DNA of 37,733 nucleotides from Halomonas sp. (GTDB lineage Bacteria; Pseudomonadota; Gammaproteobacteria; Pseudomonadales; Halomonadaceae): positions 1 to 37,733 of the forward strand of contig JAIVHL010000149.1 in NCBI GenBank assembly GCA_020201075.1. The letters run 5' to 3'. The position numbers and the translations under genes were made by a program. The notes beneath the pieces were generated by a model that saw only the letters and a program-made list of their open reading frames with translations, was not told the DNA's origin and made no database searches. Below, in pieces: positions 13,267 through 31,612 of this stretch. Position 1 is the stretch's first letter. The number at the start of each line of letters is the position of its first letter.

Positions 13267-13443
13267 ATGTACGTCTATCGCATCCTGCTGTTCCTGGTGC
13301 TCGGCGGCTACCTGCTCTCGCCATTGATGATGAGCGGCTGGGCCAGCCCGGGCGTGGCCTGGTATCGCCCCTTTGTCATCTGGGGAGTGCTGATCGCCCT
13401 GACCCTGTGGCTGGAGCAGAAGAGAAAACTCGATGAACGCTAG
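13267..13443 (+). CDS. small two-helix membrane protein overlapping cbrA
   Basis: A 58-residue open frame starts at ATG 13267, 9 bp after the gluQRS stop, and ends 11 bases inside cbrA. It has two hydrophobic segments (RILLFLVLGGYLLSPL, then FVIWGVLIALTLWL) joined by a short polar loop, and ends in the charged EQKRKLDER. There is no family motif I can name. A small open frame is also reported just before cbrA in Pseudomonas, so I infer a conserved partner whose translation is coupled to cbrA. The overlap, the membrane character and the lack of any other explanation for this gap support it as a real gene. Confidence 0.75.
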   Translation: MYVYRILLFLVLGGYLLSPLMMSGWASPGVAWYRPFVIWGVLIALTLWLEQKRKLDER

Positions 13444-16372
13444 TCTGGCCGGGATGTTTGCCCTGGGCACAGGCTTTTTGCTGGTGCTCTTCCTGTGCGC
13501 GTTGGCAGTAGAGCGCGGGATCATCGGCACTCGTATCACACGTCATCCGCTGGTCTATACCCTGGCGCTGGGGGTCTACGCCAGCGCCTGGGCCGTGTAC
13601 GGCAGCCTGGAGCTCGCCTCGACCTCGGGCTACAGCTATCTGGCCTACTACCTGGGCGTGGCCGGGGCCTTCCTGCTCGCTCCGGTGCTGCTGGTACCGA
13701 TACAACGCATGACCCGCACCTACCAGCTGGCCTCGCTCTCCGATCTGTTCGCCTTCCGGTTTCGTTCGCGGTGGGTAGGCACCCTGATCACCCTGATCAG
13801 CCTGCTGGCAGTTCTGCCGCTGTTGGCCCTGCAGGTGCAGACCATGGGCGATGCCATCTTCCTGATGACCGGTGCCGCCTCGCCGTCGCTGCTGGCGCTG
13901 GCCTTCTGCGCCATGATCGCCCTGTTCGCCATGCTGTTCGGGGCCCGCCAGGGCCGCGTGAGTGGACATCACGACAGCCTGATGGCGGTGATCGCCCTCT
14001 CATCCCTGGTCAAGCTGGTCGCCATGCTCGGCCTCGGTGCCTTCGCGCTGTTCGTGGTCTTCAACGGTCCCGCTGACCTTCAGACCTGGCTCGATGGTCC
14101 CGGCCAAGCCTTTCAGACCGGCGTGGTGCAGCCCGATCCGGCCCACTGGCGAACTCTGCTGCTGCTATTTTTCGCGGCAGCCCTGCTGATGCCCCACATC
14201 TTCCATATCACCTTCACCGAGACCCACTCCCGTCTCACTCTGCTTCAGGCCAGTTGGGCACTGCCGCTGTTCCTGCTGCTGATGGCGCTGCCGGTGCCGC
14301 TTATCCTGTGGGCGGGCCAGCAGCTTGGCGCAGACAACGTGCTGCCTTCCGCCTACCTGGCCTTCGGGCTGTCGGAGTCGCTGTGGGTGCAGTCGCTGGC
14401 CTTCATCGCCGGGCTGGCAGCCTCCACCGCCACCATGGTGCTGATCGCCCTGGCACTGTCCGGCATGATTCTCAACCACGTGCTACTGGTGGCCCACCCC
14501 CCCGAGGCACAGTTCGACCTCTACCGCTGGCTGCTATGGTTACGCCGTGCCCTGGTGGGCGCCGTGGTGCTGGGTGGCTGGCTCTTCTATCGCATCGTGG
14601 GGGTCCACCACGACCTCACTACCCTGGCACTGGCTGCTTTCGTCGGCATGGCCCAGTGCCTGCCTGGGCTGCTGGCCCTGCTCTACTGGCCCGGTGCCAA
14701 TCGCAAGGGAATGATCTCGGGCCTCGTGGTGGGCCTGGTGGTATGGCTGCTCGGCCTGTGGGGGCCGCTGCTCACCGGACTGCCAGCGCTGGTAGTGATT
14801 CCCCCGGGGCTCGAGGCAGTGGCCGGAGATCCAGAATGGTACGTGGTCACCCTGGTCTCCCTGGCCGGTAATGCCCTGGTCTTCATCGTCGTCTCCTTGG
14901 CCACCCGCACCTCCGAAGGAGAGCGTGCCGCCGCCGAGGCCTGCTCGGTGGATGCGGTGATACGTCCTAAACGCCTGCCACTCGAGGCCGCCAACGGCGA
15001 AGAGTTCAAGACGCATCTGGCTCGCGCCCTGGGCGACGAGGCCGCGAAGCGCGAGGTAGAACGAGCCCTGGACGACCTGGGACTGGCCGCCCTGGACGGC
15101 CGCCCCTACGCCCTGCGGCGGCTGCGCGACCGCCTGCAGGCCAACCTCTCCGGTCTAATGGGCCCTTCGGTGGCTCAGGACATCGTCGACCGCTATCTCC
15201 CTTATCGCGAAGGCAGCGCCGGCGCCACCGAAGACATTCACTACGTGGAGAGCCGCCTGGAGGCCTACCGTTCACGACTCACCGGCATGGCCCGAGAGCT
15301 CGACGGCCTGCGCCGCTATCACCGCCGCACTCTCACCCGCCTGCCGGTAGGGCTATGCGCCTTCGGCGAGGACGGTGAGCTGCTGATGTGGAACGACACT
15401 CTGGCCGCGCTCAGCGGCATCGACGGCGCCAGCGTCATTGGCGCCCGCCGCGACAGCCTACCCGCCCCCTGGGGAGAGCTGCTGGGTCGCATTTTTACCG
15501 CGTCACACAGCCACCTCTACAAACAGCCGGTTACCCTGGAAGGCGGAGTCCGCTATCTGAGCCTGCACAAGGCCGAGCTCGAGGGCGATAACAGCGAGCC
15601 CGGTGGCATGGTGATCCTGGTGGAGGACCACAGCGAGATGAAGTGGCTGGAGGATGAGCTGGTCCACGCCGCACGGCTGGCCTCGATCGGCCAGCTAGCC
15701 GCCGGGGTCGCCCACGAGATCGGCAACCCCATCACCGGGATCTCCTCGCTGGCCCAGAACCTGCGCTATGACACCGAAAACCCCGAGATCCTCGAAACAG
15801 CCGAACAGATTCAGCAGCTCACCGACCGAGTCTCACGAATCGTCTCGTCCTTGGTGGGCTTTGCTCACGGTGGACGCCACCTCAGCGGCCAATCGTTTGC
15901 CCCGGTCTCCCTGGCCGAGGTCACCGACGAAGCGATTCACTTGATACATCTCGCCCGCTCGAGCGACGATGTCGTCTTCGATAACCGCTGCCCCCAGGCG
16001 CCCTGCGTCCGGGGCGATGCCCAGCGACTACTGCAGGTGATGGTCAACCTGCTAGGCAACGCGCGCGATGCGAGCCTCCCTGGCGGCCGCGTGGTCATCG
16101 AAGCGAACGCCGAGGCTGCCGGACTGAGAGTCACCGTTACTGACGAAGGCCACGGCATCGACGAGCGGGTACGCGACCACCTCTTCGAGCCCTTCACCAC
16201 CACCAAGCCCCCCGGCCAGGGCACGGGGCTGGGTCTGCCGCTGGTCTACAGCATCGTCGCCGAACACCACGGCCAAATCGATATCGAATCGCCGCCGCCA
16301 GAACACGAGCGCGGCACCCGCATCAGCCTCTGGCTGCCGCTGAACCCACAGGAGGGTGAGACACTGCAATGA
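13433..16372 (+). CDS. cbrA: CbrA, transporter-linked sensor histidine kinase
   Basis: CbrA senses carbon/nitrogen status and phosphorylates CbrB, which drives CrcZ transcription and relieves catabolite repression. The 979-residue protein (Pseudomonas about 983) begins with about twelve or thirteen membrane segments of the sodium/solute symporter type (about 1-500). A linker (about 500-620) and a PAS domain (about 640-730) follow. The kinase core has the H-box with phosphoacceptor His761 in VAHEIGNPITG, the N-box VNLLGNARDAS, G1 VTDEGHGID, F-box LFEPFTTTKPPG and G2 GTGLGLPL. All ATP-binding boxes are intact. The stop overlaps the cbrB start by four bases (ATGA). Intactness here contrasts with the damaged regulator downstream. 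Confidence 0.95.
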   Translation: MNASLAGMFALGTGFLLVLFLCALAVERGIIGTRITRHPLVYTLALGVYASAWAVYGSLELASTSGYSYLAYYLGVAGAFLLAPVLLVPIQRMTRTYQLASLSDLFAFRFRSRWVGTLITLISLLAVLPLLALQVQTMGDAIFLMTGAASPSLLALAFCAMIALFAMLFGARQGRVSGHHDSLMAVIALSSLVKLVAMLGLGAFALFVVFNGPADLQTWLDGPGQAFQTGVVQPDPAHWRTLLLLFFAAALLMPHIFHITFTETHSRLTLLQASWALPLFLLLMALPVPLILWAGQQLGADNVLPSAYLAFGLSESLWVQSLAFIAGLAASTATMVLIALALSGMILNHVLLVAHPPEAQFDLYRWLLWLRRALVGAVVLGGWLFYRIVGVHHDLTTLALAAFVGMAQCLPGLLALLYWPGANRKGMISGLVVGLVVWLLGLWGPLLTGLPALVVIPPGLEAVAGDPEWYVVTLVSLAGNALVFIVVSLATRTSEGERAAAEACSVDAVIRPKRLPLEAANGEEFKTHLARALGDEAAKREVERALDDLGLAALDGRPYALRRLRDRLQANLSGLMGPSVAQDIVDRYLPYREGSAGATEDIHYVESRLEAYRSRLTGMARELDGLRRYHRRTLTRLPVGLCAFGEDGELLMWNDTLAALSGIDGASVIGARRDSLPAPWGELLGRIFTASHSHLYKQPVTLEGGVRYLSLHKAELEGDNSEPGGMVILVEDHSEMKWLEDELVHAARLASIGQLAAGVAHEIGNPITGISSLAQNLRYDTENPEILETAEQIQQLTDRVSRIVSSLVGFAHGGRHLSGQSFAPVSLAEVTDEAIHLIHLARSSDDVVFDNRCPQAPCVRGDAQRLLQVMVNLLGNARDASLPGGRVVIEANAEAAGLRVTVTDEGHGIDERVRDHLFEPFTTTKPPGQGTGLGLPLVYSIVAEHHGQIDIESPPPEHERGTRISLWLPLNPQEGETLQ

Positions 16373-17467
16373 GCCGGATCCTGATCGTAGAAGACGAAGC
16401 CATTATCCGCAGCGCGTTGCGGCGCCTGCTGGAACGCCACGACTACCGTGTCGACGAGGCCGGCTCCGTTGGCGAGGCCACGGCCCTGGACCCACAGCGC
16501 TTCGACCTGGTGATCAGCGATTTGCGCCTGCCCGGGGAACCCGGCACCGAGCTGATCGCCCGCGCCGCACCGGTGCCGGTATTGATCATGACCAGCTACG
16601 CCAGCATGCGATCGGCGGTGGACGCTCTCAAGCAGGGTGCCGTGGACTATGTGGCCAAGCCCTTCGATCACGACGAGTTGCTGGAGACCGTGGCTCGGGT
16701 GCTGCACCTGCAGGCCTCGCGGCGCGCTGAGCCGCCGGATATCACCGAGCCCAGCGGCCAGGCCCAGCCGATGATAGGCAGCTGCCCGGCCAAGGCTGCT
16801 GCGGGTGCTGCAAGAGGGCGAGATCCGCAAGATCGGCTCGGTGGAGACTCGCCACGTAGACGTGCGCCTGATCGCCGCCACTCACCGCGACTTGCGCGCT
16901 TTGTCGAAGACCGGCGAATTCCGTCTCGATCTCTACTATCGCCTTAACGTCATGCAGATCGACCTGCCTCCGCTGCGCGACCGCGAGGATGACGTGCTGC
17001 TGATCGCCGATATCCTGCTGGACAAGGCATGTAAGCGCCACAACCGCGAAGGACTGCGGCTCTCCCGCGCCGCCCGCCGCGAGATTCACGACTACCCTTG
17101 GCCCGGCAACGTACGCGAATTGGAAAACGCCCTGGAGCGCGGAGTGATCCTCGCCGAGGGACACCTGATTCATCCGGATGACCTGGGCCTCTCGCCGATC
17201 GGCGGCGCGCTTCCCGCATCTCGCAAGGTCGCACACCCTGAGCCCGAGCCTGAGACAGTCAATGCAAAAACCGACGCCCGCCAGGGCGATGCCGAGGACG
17301 ATCTCTCGCTTGAAGACTATTTTCAGCACTTTGTGCTGGAGCACCAGGATCAGATGAGCGAGACCGAACTGGCCCAGAAACTCGGCATCAGCCGTAAGTC
17401 GCTATGGGAGCGACGCCAGCGCCTCGGCATTCCTCGCAAGAAGAGTCCACGACGCAAGAATGACTGA
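16369..17467 (+). pseudogene. cbrB: CbrB response regulator, central AAA+ segment missing
   Basis: CbrB is an NtrC-type activator of sigma-54 promoters. The receiver domain is complete (residues 1-120; acidic pocket E8/D9, phosphoacceptor D51 in ISDLRLPG, TSYAS, and K in VAKPF). Then near 16790 the frame breaks. The next frame (from about 16796) resumes at LLRVLQEGEIRKIG, late in the AAA+ domain, and continues through the arginine-finger region and YPWPGNVRELENAL to a Fis-type helix-turn-helix (ETELAQKLGISRKSLWERRQ). About 110-115 residues are lost, containing Walker A, the GAFTGA loop and Walker B. The remains total about 365 residues against about 478 expected. Without those, no ATP-driven sigma-54 activation is possible. 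Real deletion versus assembly gap is undecided. Confidence 0.9.
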
Positions 17468-17574: not shown

Positions 17575-17625
17575 TGTTACCGTCCCACACAGCCCGTGCC
17601 CCACTTTGGGGCTAATGAGGTAACA
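17575..17625 (+). promoter_or_regulatory. inverted TGTTACC half-sites, putative CbrB activating site
   Basis: TGTTACC (17575-17581) and its inverse GGTAACA (17619-17625) are separated by 37 bp and lie about 75-125 bp upstream of the sigma-54 promoter at 17700, the expected distance for an enhancer-type activator. Palindromic upstream sites for CbrB are known at the Pseudomonas crcZ promoter; identity of the bases is inferred, not checked. A small GCCCCA/TGGGGC hairpin sequence lies between the half-sites. Confidence 0.5.
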
Positions 17626-17699
17626 CTCTGCTGACCGGCGTGTTGGACCCCGGACGCTATAATTAATAACGTACTGATATCAAAAGAATAAATTTAGGA

Positions 17700-17715
17700 T
17701 GGCATGCAGCCTGCT
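17700..17715 (+). promoter_or_regulatory. sigma-54 promoter (-24/-12) of the CrcZ-like RNA
   Basis: TGGCATGCAGCCTGCT matches the sigma-54 consensus TGGCAC-N5-TTGCW at all but two positions. The invariant GG (17701-17702) and GC (17713-17714) are exactly 10 bp apart. This predicts a start near 17726, just before the first A-rich motif. AT-rich sequence between the upstream half-sites and the promoter (17658-17696, including TATCAA) could bind IHF, which the Pseudomonas crcZ promoter needs. Confidence 0.75.
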
Positions 17716-17725
17716 ACATATATCG

Positions 17726-18224
17726 TTAAGAAAAATAAGTTCCGGTGTCATCGACTGCTGCCAACAATAACAACCCTGCAGACCCGCGTGACAAGGCCCG
17801 CTCCGCCAACAACAATACCTGCGGGCCAATGCCATCCAGGCGCGATCAGTCAACAACTACAACAGATCACGTGCTCGGCCCCTCGATTGCCAACAATAAC
17901 AAGCTTTCTCGAGGAACCGGAGACTAAGGACCCGACGCATCAGCACGCCCGACAACAAGAACAACGGTCGCCAAAGGTGCACCCCCGGAAACAACACCAA
18001 TAAGCCGGGGGGAGGCAGATCCACTGCCGTCGTGGTTGGATTATTGTTTTGAATACGAGGCGGTCGCCACCAGGAGCGCCAACAAGGACAACAACATAGC
18101 TAGCCTGTTCTTATCCTTAGTGACTGCGGTACGTATTCAAGGCGATGTGCCACTACGAAGAAGAATCAGCAGCATGGATGCTGCAAGAATGCTTTAAGGG
18201 GAGGCCTGCCGGCCTCCCCTTTCT
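17726..18224 (+). ncRNA. crcZ: CrcZ-like Hfq/Crc-sequestering small RNA
   Basis: Between cbrB and pcnB, where Pseudomonas carries crcZ, there is no plausible protein gene but a strong excess of A-rich CA motifs. AANAANAA occurs at 17728 (as AAGAAAAATAA), 17763, 17808, 17892, 17954 and 18158, three of them as (AAN)3AA repeats like AACAATAACAA. Degenerate copies lie at 17852, 17990 and 18090, and one more exact copy (17684) lies upstream of the promoter. The word GCCAACAA recurs four times (17760, 17805, 17889, 18078). In CrcZ these motifs titrate Hfq/Crc away from A-rich target mRNAs and so relieve catabolite repression. A sigma-54 promoter and a perfect terminator bracket the region, giving about 500 nt against about 407 in P. 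aeruginosa. Ends are predicted only. Confidence 0.85.
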
Positions 18225-18366: not shown

Positions 18367-19782
18367 ATGTTCAAAGGATTTACCCGCTTTCTGCAGAGTC
18401 CGGGCGAACGCCTGAAGTCTTTCTTCGGCCCCGAAAGCAGCGCCGCCGCCGGCCTGTCAGAGCCGCGTATCATTCCACGCCAGGACCATCCGGTGTCACG
18501 TCAGCACTTCAGTGACGCCGCCCTCAAGGTGCTCTATCGGCTGCACAATGCCGGCTATCAGGCCTTCCTGGTGGGTGGTTGTATCCGCGACTCCCTGATT
18601 GGACGCATGCCCAAGGATTTCGACGTGGCGACCGACGCCACGCCGGAAGAGGTCAAGACGCTGTTTCGAAATTCGCGGATCATCGGCAGACGATTTCGTA
18701 TCGTGCACGTGCGCTTCGGCCGAGAGGTGATCGAGGTCACCACCTTTCGCGGCAAGCCCGGCGACGATCATAGTGATCACATCGCCCAGCAGTCTGATGA
18801 GGGACTGCTGCTGCGCGATAACGTGTGGGGCAATATCCAGGAAGACGCCATACGCCGCGACTTCACCATCAATGCCCTGTACTACAGTATCGCCGACTTC
18901 TCGATCCACGACTTCGCTAACGGCGTACGTGATATCGAGGATCGCACCCTTCGGCTGATCGGTGACCCGGCAACCCGCTATCGCGAGGATCCGGTACGCA
19001 TGCTGCGAGCGGTTCGCTTCGCGGGCAAGCTGGACTTCCACCTGGACCCCGCCACCGAAGCGCCGATCCACGATCTCGCCCCGCTGCTGCTGCAGATTCC
19101 CCCGGCCCGTCTGTTCGATGAGATCCTGAAGCTGTTCATGGGTGGACACGGCCTCGATACCTTCCGTCTGCTGCGCCAGTACGGGCTCTTCGAGATGCTC
19201 TTCCCGGAAGCCGCTGAGGCCATGGACGAATTGCCCTGGGCTGAGCCCCTGGTAGAAGCGGCACTCGCCAGCACCGATCGGCGCATCGCCGAGGAGCGGC
19301 CAGTCACACCGGCCTTCCTGTTCGCCGCCCTGCTTTGGGGTCCCGTGCAGCGTCGACAGGCCGCGCACGAACAGGACGGCATGCCGCCAATCCCCGCTCT
19401 ACAGGCGGCCTCCCAGCAGGTGGTCTCCCGCCAGCTGCAGCATATCTCGATTCCCAAGCGTTTTAGCCTGCCGATGCGGGACATCTGGGACCTCCAGCAG
19501 CGCCTGCCGATGCGTCGCGGGCGTCGGGTCTTCCAGACCCGCGAGCACCCCCGCTTCCGCGCTGCCTATGATCTGCTGCTGCTGCGCGAGGCCGCCGGCG
19601 AGCTCGAAACTGGCCTAGGCGACTGGTGGACCGCCTTCCAGAACGCCGACGAGCATGAGCAGCGTCGTCTATTGGACAAGGTTGGCGCCAACCCCGCTGG
19701 CAGCGGCGCACCGGGTAAACGGCGTCGCCGACGACGCAAGCCGCGTGGTGATAATACCGGCGGCGACAACGGCAACGGATGA
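18367..19782 (+). CDS. pcnB: poly(A) polymerase I
   Basis: PcnB adds poly(A) tails to RNA 3' ends, marking them for decay by exonucleases such as PNPase (also encoded in this window). The 471-residue protein has the nucleotidyltransferase core FLVGGCIRDSLIGRMPKDFDVAT split over residues about 64-86, with the catalytic Asp pair in DFDV. RRFRIVHVRFG, the conserved RRDFTINALYY and the RNA-binding region EDPVRMLRAVRFAGKLDF follow. The basic C-terminal tail KRRRRRRKPRG fits the poly(A) polymerase branch over CCA-adding enzymes. The stop overlaps the folK start by four bases (ATGA). Confidence 0.95.
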   Translation: MFKGFTRFLQSPGERLKSFFGPESSAAAGLSEPRIIPRQDHPVSRQHFSDAALKVLYRLHNAGYQAFLVGGCIRDSLIGRMPKDFDVATDATPEEVKTLFRNSRIIGRRFRIVHVRFGREVIEVTTFRGKPGDDHSDHIAQQSDEGLLLRDNVWGNIQEDAIRRDFTINALYYSIADFSIHDFANGVRDIEDRTLRLIGDPATRYREDPVRMLRAVRFAGKLDFHLDPATEAPIHDLAPLLLQIPPARLFDEILKLFMGGHGLDTFRLLRQYGLFEMLFPEAAEAMDELPWAEPLVEAALASTDRRIAEERPVTPAFLFAALLWGPVQRRQAAHEQDGMPPIPALQAASQQVVSRQLQHISIPKRFSLPMRDIWDLQQRLPMRRGRRVFQTREHPRFRAAYDLLLLREAAGELETGLGDWWTAFQNADEHEQRRLLDKVGANPAGSGAPGKRRRRRRKPRGDNTGGDNGNG

Positions 19783-20408: not shown

Positions 20409-21200
20409 ATGAAAAACGTCACCCTGAGCACGCTGCAGACCTTAAAGCGCGCCGGTGAGTCCTTCAGCTGCCTGACCGCCTACGACGCCTCCTTTGCCCG
20501 ATCCGCCAGCGATGCCGGCATTGAGGTGCTGCTGGTCGGCGATTCCCTGGGCATGGTCCTGCAAGGGCATGCCAGCACTCTGCCTGTCACCCTGGCCGAG
20601 ATCTGTTACCACACACGCTGCGTGGCCCGCGGCAAGGGCACCAGCCTGTTGATGGTCGACCTGCCCTTCATGGGTAACGCCAGCACCGAGCGGCTCCTGG
20701 AGAACGCCGGCGAGCTGATGCGCGCTGGCGCTGAGCTCGTCAAGGTGGAGGGTGAGGCATGGATGGCGGAGGGCGTCCGCGAGCTGACTCGCCGCGGCGT
20801 GCCGGTCTGTGCCCACCTGGGCCTCACGCCGCAGACGGTCTATCAGCTCGGCGGCTACAAGGTACAGGGCCGCGAGGCCGAGCGCGCCACTCAGATCCTC
20901 GAGGATGCCCGCACCCTGGTAGCAGCTGGCGCCTCGGTCATCCTGCTGGAGTGCGTACCGGCGAGCCTGGGCCGAGCCATCACCGAAGCGCTGGACGTGC
21001 CGGTGATCGGCATCGGCGCCGGCCCTGATACCGACGGGCAGATACTCGTGATGCACGACATGCTGAATGTCACCGCCGGCCGAAAGCCGCGCTTCGTCAA
21101 GGACTTCATGGCCGAAACCAGCGACATCCAGGGCGCTTTTCGTCGCTACCACGAGGACGTCAAGGCCCGACGATTCCCCGCCGAGGAACACTGTTTCTAG
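20409..21200 (+). CDS. panB: 3-methyl-2-oxobutanoate hydroxymethyltransferase
   Basis: PanB makes ketopantoate from 2-oxoisovalerate using methylene-tetrahydrofolate, the first step to pantothenate and coenzyme A. The 263-residue TIM barrel has the metal-binding signature [40 protein letters not shown] and ECVPASL, followed by [20 protein letters not shown]. Length and motifs are normal. panC starts 16 bp downstream, so the two form one transcription unit with folK likely upstream. Confidence 0.97.
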
Positions 21201-21216
21201 CACTGGGAGCCCCGCC

Positions 21217-21705
21217 ATGCGAACCCTCAGAGAAATCCCTGCCCTGCGTGAGACGCTGGCGGACGTTCGTCGTCGTGGCGAGCGCATCGCCCTCGTCCCC
21301 ACCATGGGTAACCTGCACGATGGCCATCTGGCGCTGGTCGCCGCGGCCCGTGAGCTCGCCGAGGTGGTAATCGCCACTATTTTTGTGAATCCCATGCAGT
21401 TCGGGGCAGGTGAAGACCTCGAGGCTTACCCGCGTACCCTCGATGAGGATCAGGCCGCGCTTGAGGCGGCCGGCTGCGACCTGCTGTTTGCCCCCGACAC
21501 CGCCACCGTCTACCCGCGTGGGCTCGAGGCCCAGACTCGTATCGTGGTGCCCGACATCACCGACGGACTGTGCGGCGCCTCGCGACCCGGCCACTTCGAC
21601 GGCGTCTCTACCGTTGTCGGCATGCTCTTCAACCTGGTACAGCCCGACATCGCCTGCTTCGGAGAAAAAGATTACCAGCAGCTGGCGGTGATTCGCCGCA
21701 TGGTG
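21217..21705 (+). pseudogene. panC: pantothenate synthetase, C-terminal part missing
   Basis: PanC joins pantoate and beta-alanine. The first 163 residues are normal: [14 protein letters not shown] (HIGH-like ATP site), [19 protein letters not shown], the pantoate-binding [18 protein letters not shown], and [16 protein letters not shown]. Immediately after RRMV the similarity stops and the frame runs on meaninglessly to a stop near 21897, because panD sequence has been joined in another frame. About 115-120 residues are missing, including the KMSKS-like SSRN segment needed for catalysis. The gene as written would not give a working enzyme. Start ATG 21217 is clear, 16 bp after panB. Confidence 0.9.
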
Positions 21706-21707
21706 GG

Positions 21708-22073
21708 CTCAAGGCCAAGCTGCACATGGCCCGCGTCACTCACGCTGTGCTCAACTACGAGGGCTCCTGCGCTATCGACGGTGAACTGCTCGACATGTCC
21801 GGCATTCGCGAGAACGAGCAGATCCAGATCTACAATGTCGAAAACGGTCAGCGCTTTACCACCTACGCCATCCGCGCCGAGGAGGGATCGCAGATGATCT
21901 CCATCAACGGCGCCGCCGCCCATCTGGCCGGTCCCGGAGATCGCGTGATCATCTGCAGCTACGCCCACTACAGCCACGCGGAGCTGGAGAACCACCAGCC
22001 GGCGCTGGTCTACCTTCAGGAAGGCAACACGATCAGTCACACCAGCCACGCGATTCCCGTGCAGATGACGTGA
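21708..22073 (+). pseudogene. panD: aspartate 1-decarboxylase, start codon missing
   Basis: PanD is a pyruvoyl enzyme that makes beta-alanine from aspartate and cleaves itself between Gly and Ser. Similarity begins at [12 protein letters not shown] without the preceding Met, directly after the broken panC. The self-processing site YEGSCAID, the conserved [15 protein letters not shown], and [19 protein letters not shown] are intact, as is the C-terminal HAIPVQMT. The first in-frame ATG is 21726, after the conserved catalytic lysine of LKAKLH, so initiation there would lose it. It appears to be the rest of a panC-panD deletion. Convergent terminators separate it from pnp. Confidence 0.88.
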
Positions 22074-24582: not shown

Positions 24583-24852
24583 TTAGCGGCGCAGGCCCAG
24601 ACGCTGGATCAGCGCCTGATAGCGCTCGAAATCCTTGCGCTTCAGGTAGTCCAGCAGCTTGCGGCGCTGGTTGACCATGCGGATCAGGCCACGACGTGAG
24701 TGGTGATCCTGCTTGTTGGTCTTGAAGTGATCCTGCAGGCCATCGATGTTGGCGCTCAGCAGGGCAACCTGCACTTCGGGGGAACCGGTATCGTTTTCGA
24801 CACGACCGAAATCGTTGACGATAGTAGCCTTCTGTTCGGCTGTGAGTGCCAT
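24583..24852 (-). CDS. rpsO: 30S ribosomal protein S15
   Basis: S15 is a primary binder of 16S rRNA in the platform of the small subunit. The 89-residue protein begins [17 protein letters not shown] and has the usual [30 protein letters not shown] and the C-terminal [16 protein letters not shown], exactly family length. GGAGAG lies upstream of the ATG. It sits between truB and pnp as in other gammaproteobacteria. Confidence 0.98.
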
Positions 24853-24867
24853 CTGTCTCTCCAGTAA

Positions 24868-24911
24868 GCAATATGCCTGAATGATGTATGTGTGAGACCA
24901 CGCATATTTGC
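24868..24911 (-). promoter_or_regulatory. rpsO leader hairpin
   Basis: On the minus strand GCAAATATGC and GCATATTGC pair (9 bp with one bulged A) across a 25-base loop, in the 78-bp truB-rpsO gap just before the S15 ribosome-binding site. S15 represses its own mRNA through a leader structure in several bacteria; whether this fold does so is inferred from position alone. Confidence 0.4.
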
Positions 24912-24930
24912 AGTCTCGGGCGTTTCTCCC

Positions 24931-31323: not shown

Positions 31324-31400
<77 letters not shown>

Positions 31401-31525
31401 TCAATCTAGGTCGGTGATTTTATACATCACCAAGACTTTTGTCAAGGCATATCACCGCTTTACCCGTACTGCCTGTTACTTTCTGAAGAACCACTTGTAC
31501 ACCCGGTACACTGTGATGATTCAGA

Positions 31526-31612
31526 TGGTGCCGAAGGCGGGACTTGAACCCGCACGGCCATAAGGCCACTACCCCCTCAAGATAGCGTGTCTACCAATTC
31601 CACCACTTCGGC
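31526..31612 (-). tRNA. tRNA-Leu (GAG)
   Basis: An 87-nt gene with encoded CCA. The acceptor stem is GCCGAAG/CTTCGGC, the anticodon loop TTGAGGG gives GAG (reads CUC/CUU), and there is a long class II variable arm (TGGCCTTATGGCCGT) as expected for leucine. Its place after secG matches leuU of E. coli. Confidence 0.97.

Follow-up and report, generated by a model that had tools for sequence, protein, structure and literature searches.

The closest described counterpart of the locus analysed here is CrcZ of Pseudomonas aeruginosa. According to passages of PMC4063720, this RNA of 407 nt carries six A-rich stretches, that is, (ARN)n runs with n≥4, binds the distal face of Hfq and abrogates repression; the same source names the decoys RsmY/RsmZ and CsrB as an analogy. 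One review (PMC8871633) and one research paper (PMC6296734) call the CbrAB system exclusive to Pseudomonadaceae, and cbrAB transcripts have been reported in ocean samples (passage of PMC5073097). The CbrB site given in the review is TGTTAC-N12-14-GTAACA-N15-19-GTAACA (part of PMC8871633).

We have analysed a stretch of 37,733 nucleotides (hereafter, the window) from a Halomonas MAG of 2.81 Mb, assembled in 260 contigs and 85.6% complete. The original prediction had placed the gene for a CrcZ-like decoy of Hfq/Crc between cbrB and pcnB, which would extend CbrAB-CrcZ control if the organism lay outside Pseudomonas. Synteny, promoter elements, conservation and the occurrence of Crc, Hfq and RpoN in the genome supported this proposal well, and we consider it very probable that the interval encodes a CrcZ-type RNA, the counterpart in Halomonas of the crcZ product. 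In the open-licence literature, where wide result lists were surveyed in part, we found no treatment of this RNA in Halomonadaceae.

Gene order, promoter and A-rich motifs

The genes of the window follow the order dksA-gluQ-cbrA-cbrB-RNA-pcnB-folK-panB, and then panC (Table 1). An interval of 899 nt separates the stop of cbrB (17467) from the start of pcnB (18367). The window CbrA was 51-53% identical to the CbrA of six Pseudomonadaceae-like genomes. Its N-terminus gave no SLC5/SSF match in Pfam, even at E 10, and CbrA was therefore named from its full-length similarity and its place. The window cbrB has lost its frame and misses ~312 nt of the AAA+ domain, including Walker A and GAFTGA, through either a real deletion or an assembly fault; in the relatives fetched, cbrB was one open frame of 442-480 aa (34/34). 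Further along, panC (21067-21897), which is followed by panD, also seems cut, the Pfam profile being matched in frame no further than position 173 of 268. The window also holds an S15 ribosomal leader found by Rfam (minus strand, 24796-24921) and two tRNAs (31327-31612).

Of the 38 genomes searched, our own included, 35 had a full-length CbrA, and the other three (G002, G026 and G036) gave only matches no better than E 9.1e-59. We have fetched 34 regions downstream of cbrA: 23 belong to the same genus and 11 to further families of the order. Gene order was the same in the 23 same-genus loci with full-length CbrA, one of which has pcnB past the contig end; in the other 22 the interval measured 829-962 nt.

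The exact motif AANAANAA, with overlaps merged, occurs seven times on the plus strand of the interval (17684, 17728, 17763, 17808, 17892, 17954 and 18158), compared with a mean of 0.31 and a maximum of 3 in shuffled sequence (0/2000 shuffles reached seven). The rest of the 37.7 kb has three further sites only on that strand. The word GCCAACAA is found at 17760, 17805, 17889 and 18078 and is absent elsewhere on the plus strand of the window. The length of the interval, the seven clusters with their coordinates and the four copies of the second word were all as originally predicted. The strand bias was kept among relatives: the 23 same-genus loci had 5-10 motifs on the RNA strand vs. 0-2 on the opposite one, and eight regions of other families with pcnB close by had 42 vs. 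9, a tally that leaves out L054 and L056 (no pcnB found) and L063 (pcnB 2.8 kb away). A sigma-54-like site was present in seven of these eight regions. In two other families, the interval between cbrB and pcnB (L058, with sigma-54 sites at positions 515 and 1021; L060, at 125 and 516) contains two consecutive units, each a sigma-54 site plus an A-rich stretch, resembling a tandem crcZ/crcY pair.

Upstream of the motifs, the GTAACA half-site of the window lies 39 nt past the TGTTAC half-site and 80 nt ahead of the sigma-54 site. The three elements occurred in this order in 23/23 same-genus loci, with the half-sites 38-39 nt apart and 79-81 nt from there to the sigma-54 site. This half-site pair fits the F1-to-R2 spacing of the published CbrB site (33-39 nt), and the middle R1 subsite had no exact match. 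A scan for sigma-54 sites at up to three mismatches gave as many matches in the window as in shuffles, so that the weight of this promoter rests on its conservation. The sigma-70 scan returned one weak site within the RNA, about the expected number. Between the CbrB half-sites, a dyad block of the TGCCCC-N5-GGGGC type (17597-17613) is partly conserved in the genus.

The position of the sigma-54 site agrees with the RNA start foreseen at 17726, which leaves the motif at 17684 upstream of the predicted transcript and the other six exact motifs within it, together with four (ARN)n runs of n≥4. At the other end, the terminator announced as perfect does have a flawless stem of 11 pairs, though the T tract behind it is short (TCTATTC), and the consensus terminator scan did not flag this hairpin. 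It was kept among the relatives, with compensatory changes.

Table 1. Coordinates of genes and predicted elements at the cbrAB-pcnB locus of the window
Feature	Position	Strand	Evidence or remark
dksA	11833		
gluQRS	12355		
cbrA, sensor histidine kinase, 979 aa, intact	13433-16372	+	HisKA/HATPase; full-length match in 35/38 genomes
cbrB, sigma-54-type response regulator, broken in assembly	16369-17467	+	
TGTTAC half-site, CbrB subsite F type	17575-17580	+	
GTAACA half-site, CbrB subsite R type	17620-17625	+	
Sigma-54 (-24/-12) promoter, TGGCAT-N5-CTGCT	17700-17715	+	Two mismatches to consensus; kept in genus alignment
Predicted CrcZ-type RNA, ~497 nt	17726-18222	+	Full-length homologues; fold z -4.44; ends inferred
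Array hairpin 1, A-rich loop motif (17763)	17747-17792	+	
Array hairpin 2, A-rich loop motif (17808)	17795-17827	+	
Array hairpin 3, degenerate A-rich loop motif (17852)	17840-17876	+	
Array hairpin 4, A-rich loop motif (17892)	17878-17917	+	
Array hairpin 5, A-rich loop motif (17954)	17937-17980	+	Compensatory changes
Array hairpin 6, degenerate A-rich loop motif (17990)	17982-18011	+	Compensatory changes, 5/8 pairs
3' core domain	18030-18158	+	Nearly invariant in Halomonadaceae; long helix pairing 18037-18057 and 18132-18152; apical region (18080-18097) A-rich
Terminator-like hairpin, 11 pairs	18196-18221	+	18196-18206 with 18211-18221
pcnB, poly(A) polymerase	18367-19782	+	TIGR01942, 535.8 bits

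Fold of the RNA and its conserved 3' core

A profile of the genus RNA produced 174 matches, of which 10 partial ones at contig or locus ends were dropped. The 164 full-length RNAs that were left include the window and some genomes twice; 163 came from loci, and 141 of these had been fetched via a pattern in the core of the RNA itself, so that the presence of the core in these RNAs cannot count as independent evidence. We have retained 99 of the 164 as non-redundant (window included), of which 33 entered alignment A1, and 25 of those 33 entered alignment A2; L037 was excluded because its contig ends. The 99 RNAs carried 5-9 exact motifs (median 7) and 0-1 on the reverse strand; when shuffled, they had a mean of 0.51 and a maximum of 4.

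The predicted fold of the window RNA was better than that of its shuffles (0/100). The consensus fold of 23 Halomonas RNAs, the window included, consisted of six array hairpins upstream of the core, each with its A-rich motif in the loop. Considering the array and a small hairpin at 18014-18028, compensatory change was seen at 27 of 52 pairs, compared with a shuffle mean of 14.8 and a maximum of 21 (0/500), and with 8-18 when the partners were slid. The excess of pair types was less striking (54 vs. a shuffle mean of 48.0, reached by 7/500). With the wider, overlapping set of 33 Halomonadaceae RNAs, compensatory change was found at 14 of 50 predicted pairs, and only the 3' ones among the array hairpins were predicted.

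The 3' core was followed through the family by several searches. The 24-mer TTGGAYTATTGTTTTGAATACGAG, at up to two mismatches, was present as one copy each in 114 of 151 family genomes and in 14 of 24 genera. A scan of the species-genome collection with a 22-mer of it returned at least 119 stretches, and the 80 listed among them all belonged to Halomonadaceae genera or to MAGs so named, which does not by itself restrict the 22-mer to this family. A model of the core domain (R1) matched 7/7 Halomonadaceae and 0/187 others among 194 genomes of the order. It also matched one Kushneria locus, with a weak match on the reverse strand as well (E 0.036). R1 found no match in 29 loci of other families and misses Pseudomonas CrcZ. 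Several CrcZ-type RNAs from other families are nevertheless predicted to form long helices, though L066 does not in its best fold. Since R1 matched no other-family locus, we do not claim sequence homology between these helices and that of the core, only a resemblance.

Such conservation raises the question of whether the RNA has a second job in its 3' core, the helix binding another protein or pairing with a target, with the A-rich array being just part of the function of the RNA. The helix arms, with their flanks, were 96% identical in the 23 Halomonas RNAs (window included), above the 90% of pcnB codon positions 1+2 and the 65% of its four-fold sites. Across the 33 Halomonadaceae RNAs, the main helix showed no both-side changes and retained its G-U pairs, which suggests that the sequence of the core helix is itself selected; the helix is also retained in two Kushneria genomes whose locus has no cbrAB. 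On the other hand, the long helices predicted in several RNAs of other families mean that the core helix may serve simply for stability or spacing. We regard a second job as possible, if rather unlikely.

We have also considered whether the interval could be the 5' leader of pcnB, acting as an attenuator or cis element, rather than a free RNA. It does sit immediately ahead of pcnB in all 22 same-genus loci that have this gene on the contig; however, the conserved terminator-like hairpin would stop the RNA 145 nt ahead of pcnB, the RNA has a conserved sigma-54 promoter of its own, and the Pseudomonas equivalent is described as a free RNA in part of PMC4063720. A leader function is thus very improbable. 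The idea of a chance A-rich spacer, or of overlooked small-protein genes, could draw on an ORF of 99 aa (17704-18003), the longest lying entirely within the interval on the plus strand, but given a motif count that no shuffle reached, the covarying hairpins and the numerous small indels seen when the interval is aligned with relatives, we give it practically no credit.

Crc, Hfq and the proposed mode of action

The genome search suggested along with the original prediction found both partners, Crc and Hfq, and RpoN as well. The Crc of our genome (G000:C248) was 47% identical to P. aeruginosa Crc and is encoded between rph and pyrE (rph-crc-pyrE), as it is in the relative G006. It keeps K77, K135, R138, K139, R140 and R141, all six residues of the RNA-contacting basic patch named in a passage of PMC9890229, and it has lost catalytic nuclease residues and motifs that its XthA paralogue retains. 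NCBIfam files the protein as exodeoxyribonuclease III (TIGR00633, 199.5 bits, over the cut-off), with no Crc-specific family model appearing in that search; the name Crc therefore rests on its residues, its place and its closeness to P. aeruginosa Crc. Of 38 genomes, 36 gave a Crc-like match with an E value of 5.4e-60 or lower, G024 giving a weak match only and G026 none. Hfq was found in 37 of the 38 genomes searched. Residue 25 of Hfq (L252:2242-2490) is F, at the place of the distal-face tyrosine (Y) of P. aeruginosa Hfq, a point against the decoy reading.

By analogy with the work on Pseudomonas, the RNA would be transcribed under the control of CbrB, bind Hfq/Crc and relieve repression. 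Upon exhaustion of good carbon sources, CbrA would activate CbrB, which would bind the TGTTAC/GTAACA half-sites and drive the sigma-54 promoter at 17700-17715. This promoter would yield an RNA of ~500 nt ending near 18222, which would draw Hfq/Crc away from mRNAs for catabolism and transport, where they occupy the ribosome-binding sites.

Candidate targets were searched with the pattern AACAANAA-N1-9-ATG, which in two genomes gave 38 sites, a modest excess over the 18 obtained with the reversed control. Thirty target loci were fetched and 29 placed, and by ORF length most were not gene starts. The best two were transporter binding proteins, named by eye; under a strict rule, the motif at their start codons was kept in 6/10 and 4/16 loci, in a few of which the start codon is poorly placed. 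This conservation was too weak to name a regulon from the A-rich target sites.

The Kushneria locus and the relation to known decoy RNAs

Kushneria belongs to the same family as Halomonas, and two of its genomes, G199 and K. konosiri X49T, have a different arrangement. Their locus reads dksA-gluQ-RNA-pcnB-folK-panB (L321:10874-13080 and L322:8894-11000), and neither cbrA nor cbrB was found in the 19-20 kb at the locus in either genome. Nor did a search of the whole G199 genome find CbrA at E values up to 1e-120. The RNAs keep nine and eight motifs plus the sigma-54 site, and their core domains scored 80.3 and 79.7 bits with the core model.

The Halomonas-type CbrB half-site pair is absent upstream of both Kushneria RNAs, K. 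konosiri having one GGTAACC and then one TGTTAC. Both upstream regions have instead, in matching places, two dyads of the TGCAC-N7-GTGCA form, which resemble NtrC boxes and were scored against an NtrC-box consensus. The dyads are spaced by 31-32 bp, and their centres lie 104-105 and 135-137 bp ahead of the promoter; one of them is exact (in K. konosiri) and the rest are degenerate. The pair score of 19.5 was reached by 0/2000 shuffles for each genome, and the score of the best single dyad by 18/2000 in G199 and 0/2000 in K. konosiri, counts that are not clean probabilities, as the scoring was designed after the sites had been seen in two genomes. The maximum pair score in 23 Halomonas intervals was 17.5, below that of Kushneria. 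Judged by this consensus, the dyads could constitute an NtrC enhancer. We tentatively propose, at somewhat less than an even chance, that the decoy RNA is more independent than CbrAB and that the Kushneria sponge is wired to nitrogen status via tandem NtrC boxes. Kushneria would then be a natural case of a sponge separated from its activator, and it is our most interesting lead.

The check with the Rfam CrcZ model (RF01675) that had been proposed for the Halomonas RNA found nothing, either in the genome or in the window with the E limit raised to 10; membership of that family requires more than 95 bits. The best score in the Halomonadaceae was that of a Kushneria RNA (22.3 bits, E 0.0096). Across 194 genomes of the order, RF01675 had matches in 41, nine of them over the cut-off and belonging to families f21, which we have taken as Pseudomonadaceae from these very scores, and f2; other families stayed below. 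We have chosen 18 of the 41 genomes and found CbrA in 16, with RF01675 located 1.6-1.8 kb downstream of cbrA in 14 of these; in two f8 genomes CbrA was present and the match was not at that distance. The two genomes of the 18 with no CbrA at E 1e-120 were G138 and Kushneria G199. With no RF01675 match and the same setting, the Halomonas RNA therefore corresponds to CrcZ by place and apparent function and falls outside the Rfam family in its present form.

Six f21 CrcZ matches, which have the same promoter elements, allowed a direct comparison. The Halomonas RNA is longer, as expected (~497 vs. 375-403 nt). It had also been expected to carry more motifs and to titrate more Hfq per molecule, but it has six exact motifs vs. 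5-6 in the f21 RNAs, and four (ARN)n≥4 runs vs. 5-6; since the motif count is no higher, greater titration was not borne out. The Halomonadaceae medians were seven exact motifs, slightly above the Pseudomonadaceae-like RNAs, and six (ARN)n≥4 runs, equal to them. In one Pseudomonadaceae-like genome, Rfam "sRNA P36" (RF01679) matched L066:1345-1405, in the CbrB-site region upstream of crcZ; this match may represent promoter and cbrB-terminator DNA rather than a separate sRNA.

Contrary to the Pseudomonadaceae-only statements, the whole CbrAB-CrcZ-type set is present in Halomonas and relatives, and CbrA is again accompanied by an A-rich sigma-54 RNA in other families of the order. Halomonadaceae strains are used for making bioplastics and ectoine; carbon catabolite repression in these hosts becomes testable, and a comparative structure for CrcZ is gained. 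What the analysis yields is a real CrcZ-type gene with its own architecture, in a family without prior description in the literature surveyed.

The Halomonas RNA is like Pseudomonas CrcZ in its place after cbrB, its sigma-54 promoter and TGTTAC/GTAACA sites, its several ARN/AANAANAA motifs and its hairpin terminator. It differs in having no Rfam match, in being ~100 nt longer, in the spacing of its half-sites, in presenting its motifs in the loops of covarying hairpins and in its family-specific 3' core helix. It would also act like CrcY and CrcX of Pseudomonas and Azotobacter, CbrB-driven Crc/Hfq antagonists according to part of the review (PMC8871633). Unlike these, which are extra RNAs beside CrcZ, it is found as one copy per core-matching Halomonadaceae genome. 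With RsmY/RsmZ and CsrB it would share the design of an RNA sponge with protein-binding motifs in hairpin loops, though those RNAs bind RsmA/CsrA at GGA motifs and not Hfq/Crc at A-rich motifs. Among these systems, the Halomonas CrcZ-type RNA is ordinary in principle, and new in place and form.
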